DNA of 32,160 bases from Desulfosporosinus sp. Sb-LF (GTDB taxonomy: Bacteria; Bacillota; Desulfitobacteriia; Desulfitobacteriales; Desulfitobacteriaceae). Location of the stretch: the NCBI RefSeq assembly GCF_004766055.1, contig NZ_SPQR01000022.1, positions 1-32,160 of the forward strand, given 5' to 3'. The position numbers were made by a program, and so were the translations under genes. The notes under the pieces are model-generated. The model was given only the letters and a program-made list of their open reading frames with translations. It had not been told where the DNA came from and searched no databases. Shown here in pieces: positions 3,011-20,146 of this stretch. The number at the start of each line of letters is the position of its first letter. The first letter of the stretch is position 1.

Positions 3011-3086
<76 letters not shown>

Positions 3087-3092
3087 AACCCC

Positions 3093-3168
3093 GGCCCCGT
3101 GGTGTAGTGGTCAACATGCCTGCCTGTCACGCAGGAGATCGTCGGTTCAAGTCCGATCGGGGTCGCCA
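3093..3168 (+). tRNA. tRNA-Asp (GTC)
   Basis: Acceptor arms GGCCCCG/CGGGGTC, encoded CCA, anticodon loop CTGTCAC within CCTGC/GCAGG, anticodon GTC. Six bases after tRNA-Val. Confidence 0.95.
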
Positions 3169-3176
3169 TAATATTT

Positions 3177-3252
<76 letters not shown>

Positions 3253-3253
3253 T

Positions 3254-3328
3254 GCGGGTGTAACTCAGTGGTAGAGTGTCACCTTGCCAAGGTGAAAGTC
3301 GCGAGTCCGAATCTCGTCACCCGCTCCA
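3254..3328 (+). tRNA. tRNA-Gly (GCC)
   Basis: Acceptor arms GCGGGTG/CACCCGC, discriminator T, encoded CCA, loop TTGCCAA, anticodon GCC. Only one base separates it from tRNA-Phe, so they must be cut from one transcript. Confidence 0.95.
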
Positions 3329-3341
3329 CTATTATTTCTCT

Positions 3342-3416
<75 letters not shown>

Positions 3417-3427
3417 ATCAATTCATT

Positions 3428-3516
3428 GCCGATGTGGCGGAACTGGCAGACGCACGGGACTTAAAATCCCGCGGGCTTAACAGCCCGTACCGGTTCGATT
3501 CCGGTCATCGGCACCA
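3428..3516 (+). tRNA. tRNA-Leu (TAA)
   Basis: Class II tRNA of 89 bases with a long variable arm (CGGGCTTAACAGCCCG). Acceptor arms GCCGATG/CATCGGC, encoded CCA, loop CTTAAAA, anticodon TAA. Confidence 0.95.
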
Positions 3517-3519
3517 TAT

Positions 3520-3596
3520 GGGTTTGTAGCTCAGCTGGTTAGAGTACCGCGTTGACATCGCGGGGGTCGGAGGTTCGAGTCCTCTCAAACCCACCA
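3520..3596 (+). tRNA. tRNA-Val (GAC)
   Basis: Acceptor arms GGGTTTG/CAAACCC, encoded CCA, loop TTGACAT in CCGCG/CGCGG, anticodon GAC. It is the second valine isoacceptor of the cluster and its last gene. Confidence 0.94.
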
Positions 3597-8182: not shown

Positions 8183-8478
8183 AGGAATTGTGCCAATCTG
8201 CCAAGCAGATAGTTTGAGATAATATGTCAATATGATAAGAAAATCGTTGAAAGGGAGAGTACTCTGTTTTTTTGTGTAAGAGAGGGAATGCCTTGGCTGC
8301 AAGCATTTCTCACGAACGTACAGGAGAAAACCACCCTTGAGTGCTGGGCTGAAATAAGTAAGCTTTGCCGTACCCCGCGTTAAGGGAAATCGAGTGAAAG
8401 GCCTTTATTAGATGACCTTTTAATTGGGTGGAACCACGGGAGTAAACTCTCGTCCCTTGCAGGGACGAGAGTTTTATA
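8183..8478 (+). promoter_or_regulatory. T-box riboswitch, threonine-specific
   Basis: Stem I region with GGGAGAGTACTCTG and the AGAGAGGGAATG element, a specifier region AAACCACC (probable threonine codon ACC at 8330-8332), the T-box GGGTGGAACCACGGG (8426-8440) and a terminator CTCTCGTCCC/GGGACGAGAG (8448-8472) ending in T. Known mechanism: uncharged tRNA-Thr pairs with the specifier and with the T-box bulge, stabilising the antiterminator and allowing thrS transcription. Confidence 0.93.
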
Positions 8479-8547
8479 TTTTCCATTTATAAAGTAAACT
8501 TTTCAAGTGCCTCTTTTGCTTGTCAAATTTAGTAAGGAGTGATAATT

Positions 8548-10482
8548 ATGATTCAAGTTACCTTAAAAGATGGATCAATTCGCGAGGTAGAGCAAGGAAC
8601 AACCATCGGAGAATTAGCAGCTTCTATTTCTCGAGGATTGGCGAAGGTAGCTGTAGCAGGAAAGGTTAATGATAAGCTGAAGGACCTAGCCTATGGGCTT
8701 AGGGAAAATGCGGCTGTAGAGATTGTTACGATAGATAGTGAGGAAGGCTTAGATATACTGCGACATTCCACGTCACACTTGATGGCTCAAGCCGTAGGAA
8801 ATCTATTTCCAGGGACAAAGCTTGGTTTTGGACCGACGATTGCTAAAGGATTTTATTACGACTTTGATTCCGAACATGTCTTTACTCCAGAGGATTTGGC
8901 GCTTATTGAGAAGGAAATGAGTCGCCTGGTAAAGGAGAAGTATTCTTACGAACGCCGAGAAGTGTCTCGAGAAGAGGCGTTAACGTACTTTGGTGACCTA
9001 GGGGAAAAATACAAGGTGGAACTTATTGAGGGTCTCCCAGACGATGTTGCAATTTCACTATATACTCAAGGAAATTTCACAGACCTTTGCGCAGGACCTC
9101 ATCTGCCTTCAACGGCTAGTATTAAGGCCTTCAAGCTCATGAGCCTAGCGGGTGCATATTGGCGGGGGAACGAGAAGAATAAAATGCTTCAACGTATCTA
9201 TGGAACTGCCTTTTCTAAGCCTTCCGAACTTGAAGATCATCTGTTTAAGCTGGAAGAAGCCAAACGACGTGACCATCGTAAACTCGGCTTAGAGCTGGAT
9301 CTTTTTAGTTTACACGAAGAAGGACCTGGTTTTCCGTTCTTCCATCCAAAAGGCATGATCTTACGTAATGCGCTGGAGGATTTCTGGCGACAGGAACACC
9401 GTAGACGCGGCTATCAGGAGATTAAGACTCCAATCATCCTCAATCGCTCGATGTGGGAACAATCTGGGCACTGGGATCATTACAAAGAAAACATGTATTT
9501 CACTGAAATTGATGACCAGGATTATGCTGTGAAGCCCATGAATTGTCCAGGCGGTATGATCATGTATAAAACAAAAATGCGCAGTTATCGAGATCTTCCA
9601 CTTCGTGTAGGGGAACTGGGACTTGTACATCGCCATGAACTTTCGGGTGCACTCCATGGTTTACTACGGGTTCGAAACTTTACCCAAGATGATGCGCACC
9701 TCTTTATGCTTCCATCCCAAATCAAGGAAGAATTAATCGGGGTTATTGAACTGGTGGACTATTTCTACAAAGTATTTGGGTTTGAGTATAAGGTGGAATT
9801 ATCGACCCGTCCTGAGGATTCCATGGGTTCGGATGAAGACTGGGAAACGGCAACCAAGGCTCTCCAGGGAGCATTAGAGGACAAAGGGATTGATTACAAC
9901 ATTAATCCAGGTGATGGAGCGTTCTATGGACCTAAGATTGATTTTCATGTGAAGGATTGTCTCGATCGAACATGGCAATGCGGAACGATCCAACTGGATT
10001 TCCAAATGCCGGAAAAATTCGACTTAAATTATATTGGAGAAGACGGCCAAAAACATCGGCCTGTGATGATTCACCGGGTCGTCTATGGAAGTATCGAACG
10101 ATTCATCGCACTACTGACAGAACACTATGCAGGGGCTTTTCCTGTCTGGCTGGCGCCCATTCAAGTCCGTATCCTTCCGGTCAGTGAACGGCATCATGAG
10201 TATGCAAAAACCCTGGCCTCCCGTCTGAATGACCTGGATATAAGGGTAGAAGCGGATGAACGCAAAGAAAAGATTGGCTATAAGATCAGGGAAGCTCAAA
10301 CTGAAAAAATCCCATATACGTTAGTTGTCGGGGATCAGGAAGCTGAATCCAATAGTGTGGCAGTCCGAAGGTACGGGCAAGGTGATGTTGGAGAAAGGGT
10401 GACCGTTGAGGAGTTTATTGCCCTCGTCCAAGAAGAGGTTAAGAGCAAAAGAATTCTAAAAATTAGTCCCAAGGAAGCCTAA
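8548..10482 (+). CDS. thrS: Threonyl-tRNA synthetase
   Basis: Full-length class II ThrRS of 644 residues. Order: TGS domain (1-62), editing domain (63-225) with the HSTSH pair and the LCAGPH motif, catalytic core (~240-535) and anticodon-binding domain (~540-640). Zinc ligands are in the expected places: C333 in MNCPGGM, H384 in DDAHLF and H509 in MIHR. The editing residues imply removal of mischarged serine. I chose ATG 8548, preceded by AAGGAGTGAT; a GTG at 8539 would lie inside this RBS. Expression depends on the T-box leader upstream. No terminator is visible directly after the gene, so some read-through toward infC is possible. Confidence 0.98.
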   Translation: MIQVTLKDGSIREVEQGTTIGELAASISRGLAKVAVAGKVNDKLKDLAYGLRENAAVEIVTIDSEEGLDILRHSTSHLMAQAVGNLFPGTKLGFGPTIAKGFYYDFDSEHVFTPEDLALIEKEMSRLVKEKYSYERREVSREEALTYFGDLGEKYKVELIEGLPDDVAISLYTQGNFTDLCAGPHLPSTASIKAFKLMSLAGAYWRGNEKNKMLQRIYGTAFSKPSELEDHLFKLEEAKRRDHRKLGLELDLFSLHEEGPGFPFFHPKGMILRNALEDFWRQEHRRRGYQEIKTPIILNRSMWEQSGHWDHYKENMYFTEIDDQDYAVKPMNCPGGMIMYKTKMRSYRDLPLRVGELGLVHRHELSGALHGLLRVRNFTQDDAHLFMLPSQIKEELIGVIELVDYFYKVFGFEYKVELSTRPEDSMGSDEDWETATKALQGALEDKGIDYNINPGDGAFYGPKIDFHVKDCLDRTWQCGTIQLDFQMPEKFDLNYIGEDGQKHRPVMIHRVVYGSIERFIALLTEHYAGAFPVWLAPIQVRILPVSERHHEYAKTLASRLNDLDIRVEADERKEKIGYKIREAQTEKIPYTLVVGDQEAESNSVAVRRYGQGDVGERVTVEEFIALVQEEVKSKRILKISPKEA

Positions 10483-10644: not shown

Positions 10645-10650
10645 ATTCGT

Positions 10651-10775
10651 TGTCAAGTAGAAGCCATCCGCTTCTCACCTTACGGCATTTGTCGGTATGG
10701 TATCTTCTGGTCCTGAGCTTAGTGTGTGCTCTTGATTGTTTAGAAGACGGGTGGTGATTCACCCGTCTTTTTTCT
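10651..10775 (+). promoter_or_regulatory. L20 leader (ribosomal protein autoregulation)
   Basis: The leader holds the hairpin GAAGC/GCTTC followed by TCACCTTACGGC, characteristic of L20 leaders, and ends in a terminator AGACGGGTG/CACCCGTCT (10744-10767) with six T. In Bacillus, excess L20 binds such a leader, which mimics its 23S site, and promotes premature termination. The operon order infC-rpmI-rplT fits this. The assignment is by motif and position, not by covariance search. Confidence 0.8.
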
Positions 10776-10808
10776 ATTACGTTGAAATTTTAATGGGGGT
10801 GGTTTCTT

Positions 10809-19008: not shown

Positions 19009-20010
19009 CTACTTGGAAAAAGTGGCGTTCTTCAAGATATCCTCTGGAACCGTTAAACCCAGTAAATTAATGGTTGCCTTATTGAATACAGTATCGAATT
19101 CTTTCTGACTCTCAATGGGCATATCTTGTGGCTTCTCTCCTTTAAAGACTCTAAGGGCCATGTCGCCAGTTTGTTTACCTAACTTTTGATAGTTAATCCC
19201 GATTGTGGCCAAGGCACCTTTGTCAACAACGCTGCTCTCGCCCGAAATAACGGGGATTTTGTTCTTGTTGGCAACTTGCACAACGGATTGTGCAGCAGAA
19301 ACAACCATGTTATCTGTGGGTACATAGATTGTATCAACTTTTCCTATTAGTGATTGGGCTGCTTGTAAAACATCCGCGCTTGTAGTGACGGTCGCTTCCA
19401 CAACAGTTAAGCCAAGGTCCGCGGCCACTTTCTTCGCCATAGCCACTTGTACTTGAGAATTAACTTCTCCAGCATTATAGATAACTCCGACTTTTTTTGC
19501 GGTAGGAACCAATTTCTTCATAAGTTCAAATTGTTCTTTAAGAGGGTTCATATCAGTGGTCCCAGTTACATTTTTTCCTGGTTTATCCATGCTATTCACA
19601 AGTTTCGCTGCTACCGGATCCGTAACGGCTGTGATTAAAATAGGAATATCTTTGCTTGCACTTGCCATAGCTTGTGCGGAAGGGGTAGCGATGGCTAAAA
19701 CAAGATCCAGTTTGGCTGAGGAAAATTTTTGGGCAATAGATTGTAGTACGGATTGATCCCCTTGTGCATTTTGATAGTCAACCGTGAGGTTTTTTCCTTC
19801 TTCATAACCGCCTGCCTTGAGTGCCTCTAGAAATCCTTTTCGTGCGCCATCTAAAGCAGGATGTTCAACGATTTGAACGATCCCAATCTTTAATGCCTTT
19901 TTCTCTCCGTTCGCGTCCCCGCTTGTGCTCGCTCCGGATTTCGTTGCCCCGCATCCTACTAAACCGAGTAACAACACTAAACTTAGACCAAATGCCAATA
20001 ACTTTTTCAC
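19009..20010 (-). CDS. ABC substrate-binding lipoprotein, TrpX/COG2984 type
   Basis: A 333-residue lipoprotein: basic N-terminus, hydrophobic core and lipobox LVGC (cleavage before Cys ~19), then a serine-rich tether. The mature part (KIGIVQIVEHPALDGARKGFLEAL ... ITAVTDPVAAKLV ... GVIYNAGEVNSQVQ) is the periplasmic-binding-like fold of COG2984. Relatives bind aromatic amino acids, but the ligand here is unknown. I chose GTG 20010, six bases after GGAGGT; the ATG at 20016 touches the RBS directly. The family link to tryptophan is knowledge; the substrate is not shown by the sequence. A leader with a terminator hairpin precedes it. Confidence 0.9.
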   Translation of the reverse strand: MKKLLAFGLSLVLLLGLVGCGATKSGASTSGDANGEKKALKIGIVQIVEHPALDGARKGFLEALKAGGYEEGKNLTVDYQNAQGDQSVLQSIAQKFSSAKLDLVLAIATPSAQAMASASKDIPILITAVTDPVAAKLVNSMDKPGKNVTGTTDMNPLKEQFELMKKLVPTAKKVGVIYNAGEVNSQVQVAMAKKVAADLGLTVVEATVTTSADVLQAAQSLIGKVDTIYVPTDNMVVSAAQSVVQVANKNKIPVISGESSVVDKGALATIGINYQKLGKQTGDMALRVFKGEKPQDMPIESQKEFDTVFNKATINLLGLTVPEDILKNATFSK

Positions 20011-20035
20011 CGTCATACCTCCTCAAAATTCTGGG

Positions 20036-20111
20036 CATAAAAAATACACCTCCGCAGGAAGTGCTTCGTTGCCCAACCCCTACTGTACTACCATACTACC
20101 ATTATTTAATT
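20036..20111 (-). promoter_or_regulatory. Attenuator-like leader of the ABC operon
   Basis: Reading leftward, GCACTTCC (20064-20057), loop TGC, GGAGGTGT (20053-20046) then A and six T form an intrinsic terminator before the lipoprotein gene. An upstream segment GTAGGGG (20083-20077) can instead pair with TTCCTGC (20060-20054), which covers the terminator's 5' arm and loop. A further pairing TGGGCA/TGCCCA (around 20076-20071 and 20037-20032) would enclose the whole. No T-box element or known riboswitch core is recognisable. Confidence 0.6.
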
Positions 20112-20117
20112 AATTTT

Positions 20118-20146
20118 ATATTAAAGTATATGACAAAGGGTGTCAA
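20118..20146 (-). promoter_or_regulatory. Promoter of the ABC transporter operon
   Basis: Minus strand TTGACA (20146-20141), 17-base spacer, TAATAT (20123-20118). Predicted start near 20111, giving a ~100-base leader. Confidence 0.75.

Follow-up and report, generated by a model that had tools for sequence, protein, structure and literature searches.

The leader of an ABC importer gene in Desulfosporosinus sp. Sb-LF (genome of 4.27 Mb) is a real element, in which a tandem repeat array, an intrinsic terminator and a competing antiterminator pairing are conserved. We propose, at a probability of roughly 0.7, that this leader is a transcription attenuator run by HutP2, a paralogue of HutP, the histidine antiterminator of Bacillus; HutP2, probably loaded with phenylalanine or tyrosine, would bind the array and thereby bring about termination. 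The leader lies in a window of 32,160 nucleotides (the whole stretch of DNA analysed, positions 1 to 32,160 of contig NZ_SPQR01000022.1), where it is read on the minus strand, 5′ of the gene at 19009-20016. L-numbers denote loci or leaders, and G-numbers genomes.

Architecture of the importer leader

Twelve leaders of the Desulfosporosinus group (the window leader and L001-L011) were aligned, and the features below are all on the minus strand. The promoter, TTGACA-17-TAATAT (20146-20118; 10/12 as a motif), is a weak match by itself, since one was found and 1.3 are expected in shuffled sequences; its TTGACA is invariant in 12/12 leaders, unlike its -10 box. An intrinsic terminator, supported by both motif search and alignment, consists of an 8-pair stem-loop, GCACTTCCTGCGGAGGTGT (20064-20046), and a tail of one A and six T (20045-20039), with one terminator found against 0.3 expected in shuffles. 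Terminator, T run and most of the array upstream are invariant or nearly so across the alignment. A further helix, overlooked in the sequence-only reading, encloses the terminator: its 5′ strand, TTGGGCA (20076-20070), includes a TGGGC that is invariant in the 12 leaders, and its 3′ strand, TGCCCAG (20037-20031), reads TGTCC in L004, L006, L007 and L008. A Shine-Dalgarno sequence, GAGGAGG, follows at 20024-20018.

Two structures compete within this leader. The segment GTAGGGG (20083-20077), inside the last array unit, can pair with TTCCTGC (20060-20054), which is made up of terminator 5′ arm and loop, and this pairing is kept in 12/12 aligned leaders. When the RNA was folded from 20100, the best structure at 50 nt contained the antiterminator (-10.4), with three bases of the terminator 3′ arm out, and from 56 nt on the terminator replaced the antiterminator (-12.0). 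A conserved terminator with a conserved, competing antiterminator is the arrangement expected of a protein-controlled attenuator. The sequence-only reading had put forward a dedicated promoter, an 8-bp terminator and an attenuation layout based on this very pairing, and all three held up.

The complementarity between array and terminator arm was also assessed by swapping arrays among 25 leaders, comprising 24 picked from 34 so that near copies were avoided, plus the second array of L032. Pairings of each array with its own terminator arm summed to -262.1, compared with -229.6 ± 9.4 for permuted combinations, a sum matched in 5/10,000 permutations, and the base pairs involved differ widely among L157, L122, L145, L032 and L041. 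We consider this test better evidence than mononucleotide shuffles, in which 7/34 leaders beat shuffled arrays at the 5% level. The duplex of the window leader (-9.0) is weaker than those that the other arrays form on average with its terminator arm (-10.4).

Distribution of the GYAGNAYG array

The array spans 24 nt and is built of three 8-nt units of the form GYAGNAYG, GGTAGTAT GGTAGTAC AGTAGGGG (20100-20077), a putative HutP2 binding site. Its UAG triplets (20098-20096, 20090-20088 and 20082-20080) are spaced 5 nt apart, and within each triplet A and G are conserved in 22-26 of 26 chosen arrays. An 8-base direct repeat had been noted before; ATGGTAGT does occur twice, at 20102-20095 and 20094-20087, but belongs to this longer array. 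Leaders of distant homologues have little else in common, yet many of them carry GYAGNAYG repeats, and arrays scoring at least 21 without T-box-like sequence were found at 29/80 importer loci (one of the 29, L042, being of low complexity). Of the two NAG-triplet clusters expected at a HutP site, the window leader shows one, whereas L032 and L033 have two. At L166, L194, L197 and L206, arrays sit hard against start codons, too near for an intervening terminator; they therefore fit a bound protein, and would act on translation. Segments seemingly complementary to the Shine-Dalgarno were seen by eye in the distant importer leaders L016, L017, L024, L032, L038 and L039, in which translational control may be added.

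Genomes were searched with a model, R2, trained on 18 arrays from distant genomes only, none from Desulfosporosinus; a second model, R1, includes own-genome sites and so obtains its ranks by construction, which R2 was made to avoid. Within the Sb-LF genome, the R2 ranking is led by the window leader (E 0.08), followed by the DAHP synthase leader (E 0.40) and then by that of hutP2 (E 2.8), both genes belonging to one aromatic cluster. The fourth site (E 3.2) lies ahead of an AMP-binding ligase with a PF14535 end, which we take to be PaaK-like, followed by a lactate-permease-family gene. A simple pattern search returned the DAHP synthase array as its only other match, with two mismatches, a result that is meaningless alone because the reversed-pattern control gave four. 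Among 40 genomes (own and relatives), 34 had a site at E ≤ 1; G058, G059, G087 and G089 contain HutP2, yet had no site at this threshold.

A class set of 82 genomes was taken as held out, since no training-genome HutP2 coordinate occurs among its HutP2 coordinates. At E ≤ 0.1 it yielded 46 sites in 37 genomes, where chance would give about eight if the rough E-values are right, and all 46 were inspected by locus or coordinates. Thirty stand before hutP2, aromatic or importer genes, namely hutP2 (9), importer (9), DAHP synthase (7), aroD (2), aroH (1), an aroE-like gene (1) and an aminotransferase with DAHP synthase downstream (1); the aroE-like gene was named by eye, as was the L170 ligase. 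The two aroD leaders (L194 from G105, L193 from G108) come from genomes placed in different genera, yet agree letter for letter through leader and gene start (190 bases), and may therefore represent one event or a mis-binned contig. Another 14 sites lie ahead of genes of organic-acid type, namely DctP-type binding protein (5), lactate-permease family (4), acyl-CoA ligase (2), LarA-type racemase (1), sodium-symporter type (1) and branched-chain-type binding protein (1); that these genes are linked to aromatics is a guess, and the sites may be those of another paralogue. The last two, L203 and L159, were left unclassed, and the L159 site, at a contig end, is probably that of hutP2 because it lies downstream of yhiN. 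At L186 (6198-7505; site C3:210599-210614) an array and terminator stand before a PaaK-like AMP-binding ligase and a lactate-permease-family gene, and relatives carry arrays ahead of LctP, LarA-type racemase, DctP and acyl-CoA ligase genes, a hint at aryl-acid metabolism in the regulon.

HutP2 and its gene neighbourhood

The Sb-LF genome contains three genes of the HutP family PF09021 (166, 117 and 100 bits). HutP2, the best match (C1:195648-196028), is part of a gene series that runs yhiN-like (named by eye), hypothetical, hutP2, the chorismate mutase gene aroH (TIGR01796, 149.6 bits), DAHP synthase (NF006421, 378), prephenate-dehydrogenase-like (199 bits, below the model cut-off of 414) and the EPSP synthase gene aroA (TIGR01356, 422), with one array 5′ of hutP2 and another, accompanied by a terminator, 5′ of DAHP synthase. 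Across 35 hutP2 regions, aroH adjoins hutP2 in 26, 20 include DAHP synthase within the fetched stretch, and at least one of aroH, DAHP synthase and importer is present in 31. In L029 and L062, the gene immediately before the importer's arrayed leader is hutP2. A check of an open-licence library of papers turned up no link of HutP with aromatic genes.

The 34 HutP2 rows group as one clade (100/100) when 55 HutP proteins are placed in a tree. Where B. subtilis HutP has H73, H77 and H138, which we take to hold metal and histidine, all 34 have G, G and E/D, although another HutP alignment places L at the third position, and 18 of the other 21 proteins have three histidines (exceptions L218, L227 and L228). 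No NCBIfam model matched HutP2 at 0.001, and the protein falls short of the histidine-utilization equivalog NF002838. A predicted model of the L062 HutP2 (pLDDT 83.8) matched six HutP entries at Z 14.9-16.7, the best being 1vea (Z 16.7), with the next entry at 7.8. This structural match and the missing histidines point to a retained HutP fold with a ligand site that is probably not that of HutP. Thr56, Thr99 and Glu137, presumably the HutP contacts with NAG, are not kept in the HutP alignment that places L at the third position. A further clade, HutP3, was seen in many genomes of the genus; its L084 member (1462-1905; C6:21457-21852) lies beside PII-like genes (by eye) and has all three histidines.

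The importer and its substrate

The leader precedes a substrate-binding lipoprotein (ABC_sub_bind, PF04392; 19009-20016), and profile matches identify an ABC permease (PF02653; 18019-18918) and an ABC ATPase (PF00005; 17223-18026), all on the minus strand. The importer had been called TrpXYZ-type, which now appears doubtful: the lipoprotein reached 342.5 bits against the TrpX equivalog NF041285, under its cut-off of 390, and its nearest solved structure is 6HNI, that of CD0873. As described in PMC6816091, CD0873 binds tyrosine with Glu263/Tyr279 as selectivity pair, which is Ala/Tyr in a Phe binder and Ala/Gln in a Trp binder. The window lipoprotein, a predicted Tyr/Phe binder, has Glu260 and Tyr276 at these positions. 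This Glu/Tyr pair occurs in 72/80 homologues, including all 29 with an array and all 9 flagged as T-box-led, and therefore cannot separate the two types of control.

The T-box leaders of seven Glu/Tyr homologues have UUC, which codes for Phe, following the specifier-region GAA, at what we take to be the specifier position (L028, L030, L046, L052, L059, L063 and L077, the model register being off by one in L046 and L052). These readings count against a pure tyrosine substrate; the same procedure gives ACC for the thrS leader of the window and UGG for L072. Two leaders flagged by pattern, L020 and L064, were below the T-box threshold. Because of the TrpX score shortfall, the Glu/Tyr pair, the likeness to CD0873 and the UUC specifiers, the substrate is, on sequence grounds, likelier Phe or Tyr than Trp.

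Alternative explanations

Another protein might read the array, either one of the two further HutP paralogues or an RNA-binding protein of another family. The presence of three HutP genes in the Sb-LF genome and the 14/46 sites before organic-acid-type genes would suit such a reader, as would sites in six class genomes that have no intact HutP2. Genome-level co-occurrence lends HutP2 no support: in the class set, an E ≤ 0.1 site was found in 31/68 genomes with intact HutP2 and 6/14 without, i.e. no association. Among genomes at least 90% complete and devoid of any HutP, 0/4 had a site at this threshold. Importer leaders with an array scoring at least 22 came from 18 genomes with HutP2 and 3 without, and those with no array from 17 with (one of them, L022, not scorable) and 12 without, a weak association. 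Against another reader, HutP2 is the single HutP of G010, G015, G019 and G032, each of which has an arrayed importer leader (L016, L021, L025 and L038, respectively), and hutP2 itself is flanked by arrays. We thus regard a different reader as unlikely, and HutP2 as the preferred candidate.

The leader could instead be an unclassified metabolite-binding riboswitch, with array and hairpins as the sensor. It is compact, combines a terminator with a competing pairing and belongs to no known Rfam family: none of 4227 models, the T-box RF00230 included, scored above threshold at the leader, where the sole sub-threshold match was a chance-like SodC_thermometer (22.4 of 125 bits). This agrees with the sequence-only reading, which had seen neither a T-box nor a known riboswitch there. 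However, what the genomes have in common is the tandem array and not a fold, since terminators differ or the array abuts a start codon, and folding of the whole leader is no better than that of shuffles (z -1.18). The window leader is probably not a riboswitch, and a sensor of this kind has only a slim chance of being right. Of the "ligand sensor or binding protein" suggested earlier, the binding protein is the part that gains support, with HutP2 as candidate. In the rest of the window, three other T-box leaders had been named, of which only that at 8238-8460 reaches the Rfam gathering score (112 bits); it precedes thrS (8539-10482) and has the Thr specifier ACC. The window further contains a Ribosomal protein L20 leader (10649-10780, 62 bits) and a cluster of seven tRNA genes (Val, Asp, Phe, Gly, Cys, Leu and Val; 3011-3596).

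A repressor bound to the array as a DNA operator is very improbable. The array does sit near the promoter, 18-41 bp downstream of the -10 box, but arrays are placed just before terminators or start codons, show leader-specific pairing with terminator arms, and are strand-biased. In 35 hutP2 regions (407 kb), 17 arrays scoring at least 23 were found on the hutP2 strand and 0 on the opposite strand, with a score hand-made after the importer leaders had been seen; at the same score, reversed sequence gave 3 and five Markov simulations 1 in total.

Even less credible is leader-peptide attenuation through the micro-ORF ATG GTA GTA TGG TAG (M-V-V-W-stop, 20102-20088), a frame that the window has and that some relatives have with TTG. 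This micro-ORF lies within the array and is probably a by-product of the repeat; no Shine-Dalgarno stands ahead of it, L003 and L005 have lost its Trp codon, and distant arrays have lost both frame and start.

Recognition by TRAP (MtrB), suggested by UAG triplets repeated in an aromatic-importer leader and by a TRAP gene in 29/50 related genomes, has next to no chance, with three triplets 5 nt apart here versus 11 spaced 2-3 in the account of PMC7430163, and with 0 matches to PF02081 in the Sb-LF genome (B. subtilis, the control, was matched) and none in G001-G004, which hold L001, L003, L005 and L008. CsrA-type GGA sites were dropped because the window array has no GGA.

Proposed mechanism and significance

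Under control by HutP2, the protein, probably with phenylalanine or tyrosine bound, would bind the three GUAG units of period 8, the last of which would double as the antiterminator 5′ strand. Bound HutP2 would block the antiterminator from pairing with the terminator 5′ arm, and because array-arm pairing is stopped the terminator would form and the importer would be off; when HutP2 is without ligand, the array would pair with the arm and allow read-through. Several considerations bear on the sign of this switch. An array that precedes the terminator and can pair with its 5′ arm predicts an OFF switch, an array doubling as antiterminator strand implies repression if a protein binds it, and the use of one array on both biosynthesis and import genes calls for end-product repression. 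Bacillus HutP acts in the opposite sense, so that TRAP-like OFF control, rather than the ON control of canonical HutP, is inferred here. TRAP and HutP2 occur together in many genomes, and a HutP2 ligand other than tryptophan is therefore likely.

More broadly, we incline slightly towards the view that HutP paralogues of one large clade in Clostridia act as Phe/Tyr-sensing RNA-binding regulators, TRAP analogues with the HutP fold and a new ligand site. Via period-8 GUAG arrays at terminators or start codons, they would control the shikimate pathway, aromatic import, their own synthesis and aryl-acid turnover. If true, one hexameric fold would have been put to use with a second kind of amino acid, and a site moved from terminator to antiterminator would have turned an activator into a repressor. 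How anaerobes that lack TRAP control the shikimate pathway would then be explained, orphan importers would gain substrates, and a pair would be at hand in which to test how ligand and RNA specificity change within one family.

Comparison with known systems

The hut operon of B. subtilis is related through the protein, since HutP2 belongs to PF09021 and shares the predicted fold, and through a cluster of three NAG triplets in the leader. NAG spacing in hut is 4 nt, versus 5 nt here. HutP2 differs from B. subtilis HutP in having G, G and E/D for H73, H77 and H138, and its presumed system differs from hut in its 8-nt unit, in its aromatic biosynthesis and import targets, and in an array that lies 5′ of the terminator and is complementary to its 5′ arm, with an OFF outcome predicted. 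A canonical hutP-hutH spacer, at about 1347-1491 of L085, combines UAG-N4-UAG with a terminator-like hairpin; its period is 7, where that of the arrays is 8. In PMC7430163, the RNA target of HutP is likewise described as clusters of three NAG triplets.

T-box leaders stand before homologous importers in other genomes; they are tRNA-sensing, unlike the window leader, which has no T-box. The Guanidine-IV riboswitch and the Gd4v motif resemble the window leader in being small leaders in which an upstream segment pairs with the terminator hairpin, and it is a resemblance only: by their published descriptions (PMC7736828, PMC9788692), these elements have two hairpins joined by a pseudoknot and precede different genes.

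The predicted logic of the array is shared with TRAP in the B. subtilis trp operon, where, as PMC7430163 describes, repeats overlap the antiterminator and binding favours the terminator, and some sites lie at start codons in both systems. TRAP is nevertheless an unrelated protein, absent from the Sb-LF genome; according to the same source it reads 11 (G/U)AG repeats spaced 2-3 nt, compared with three GYAG of period 8 here, and the ligand predicted for HutP2 is Phe/Tyr rather than Trp.
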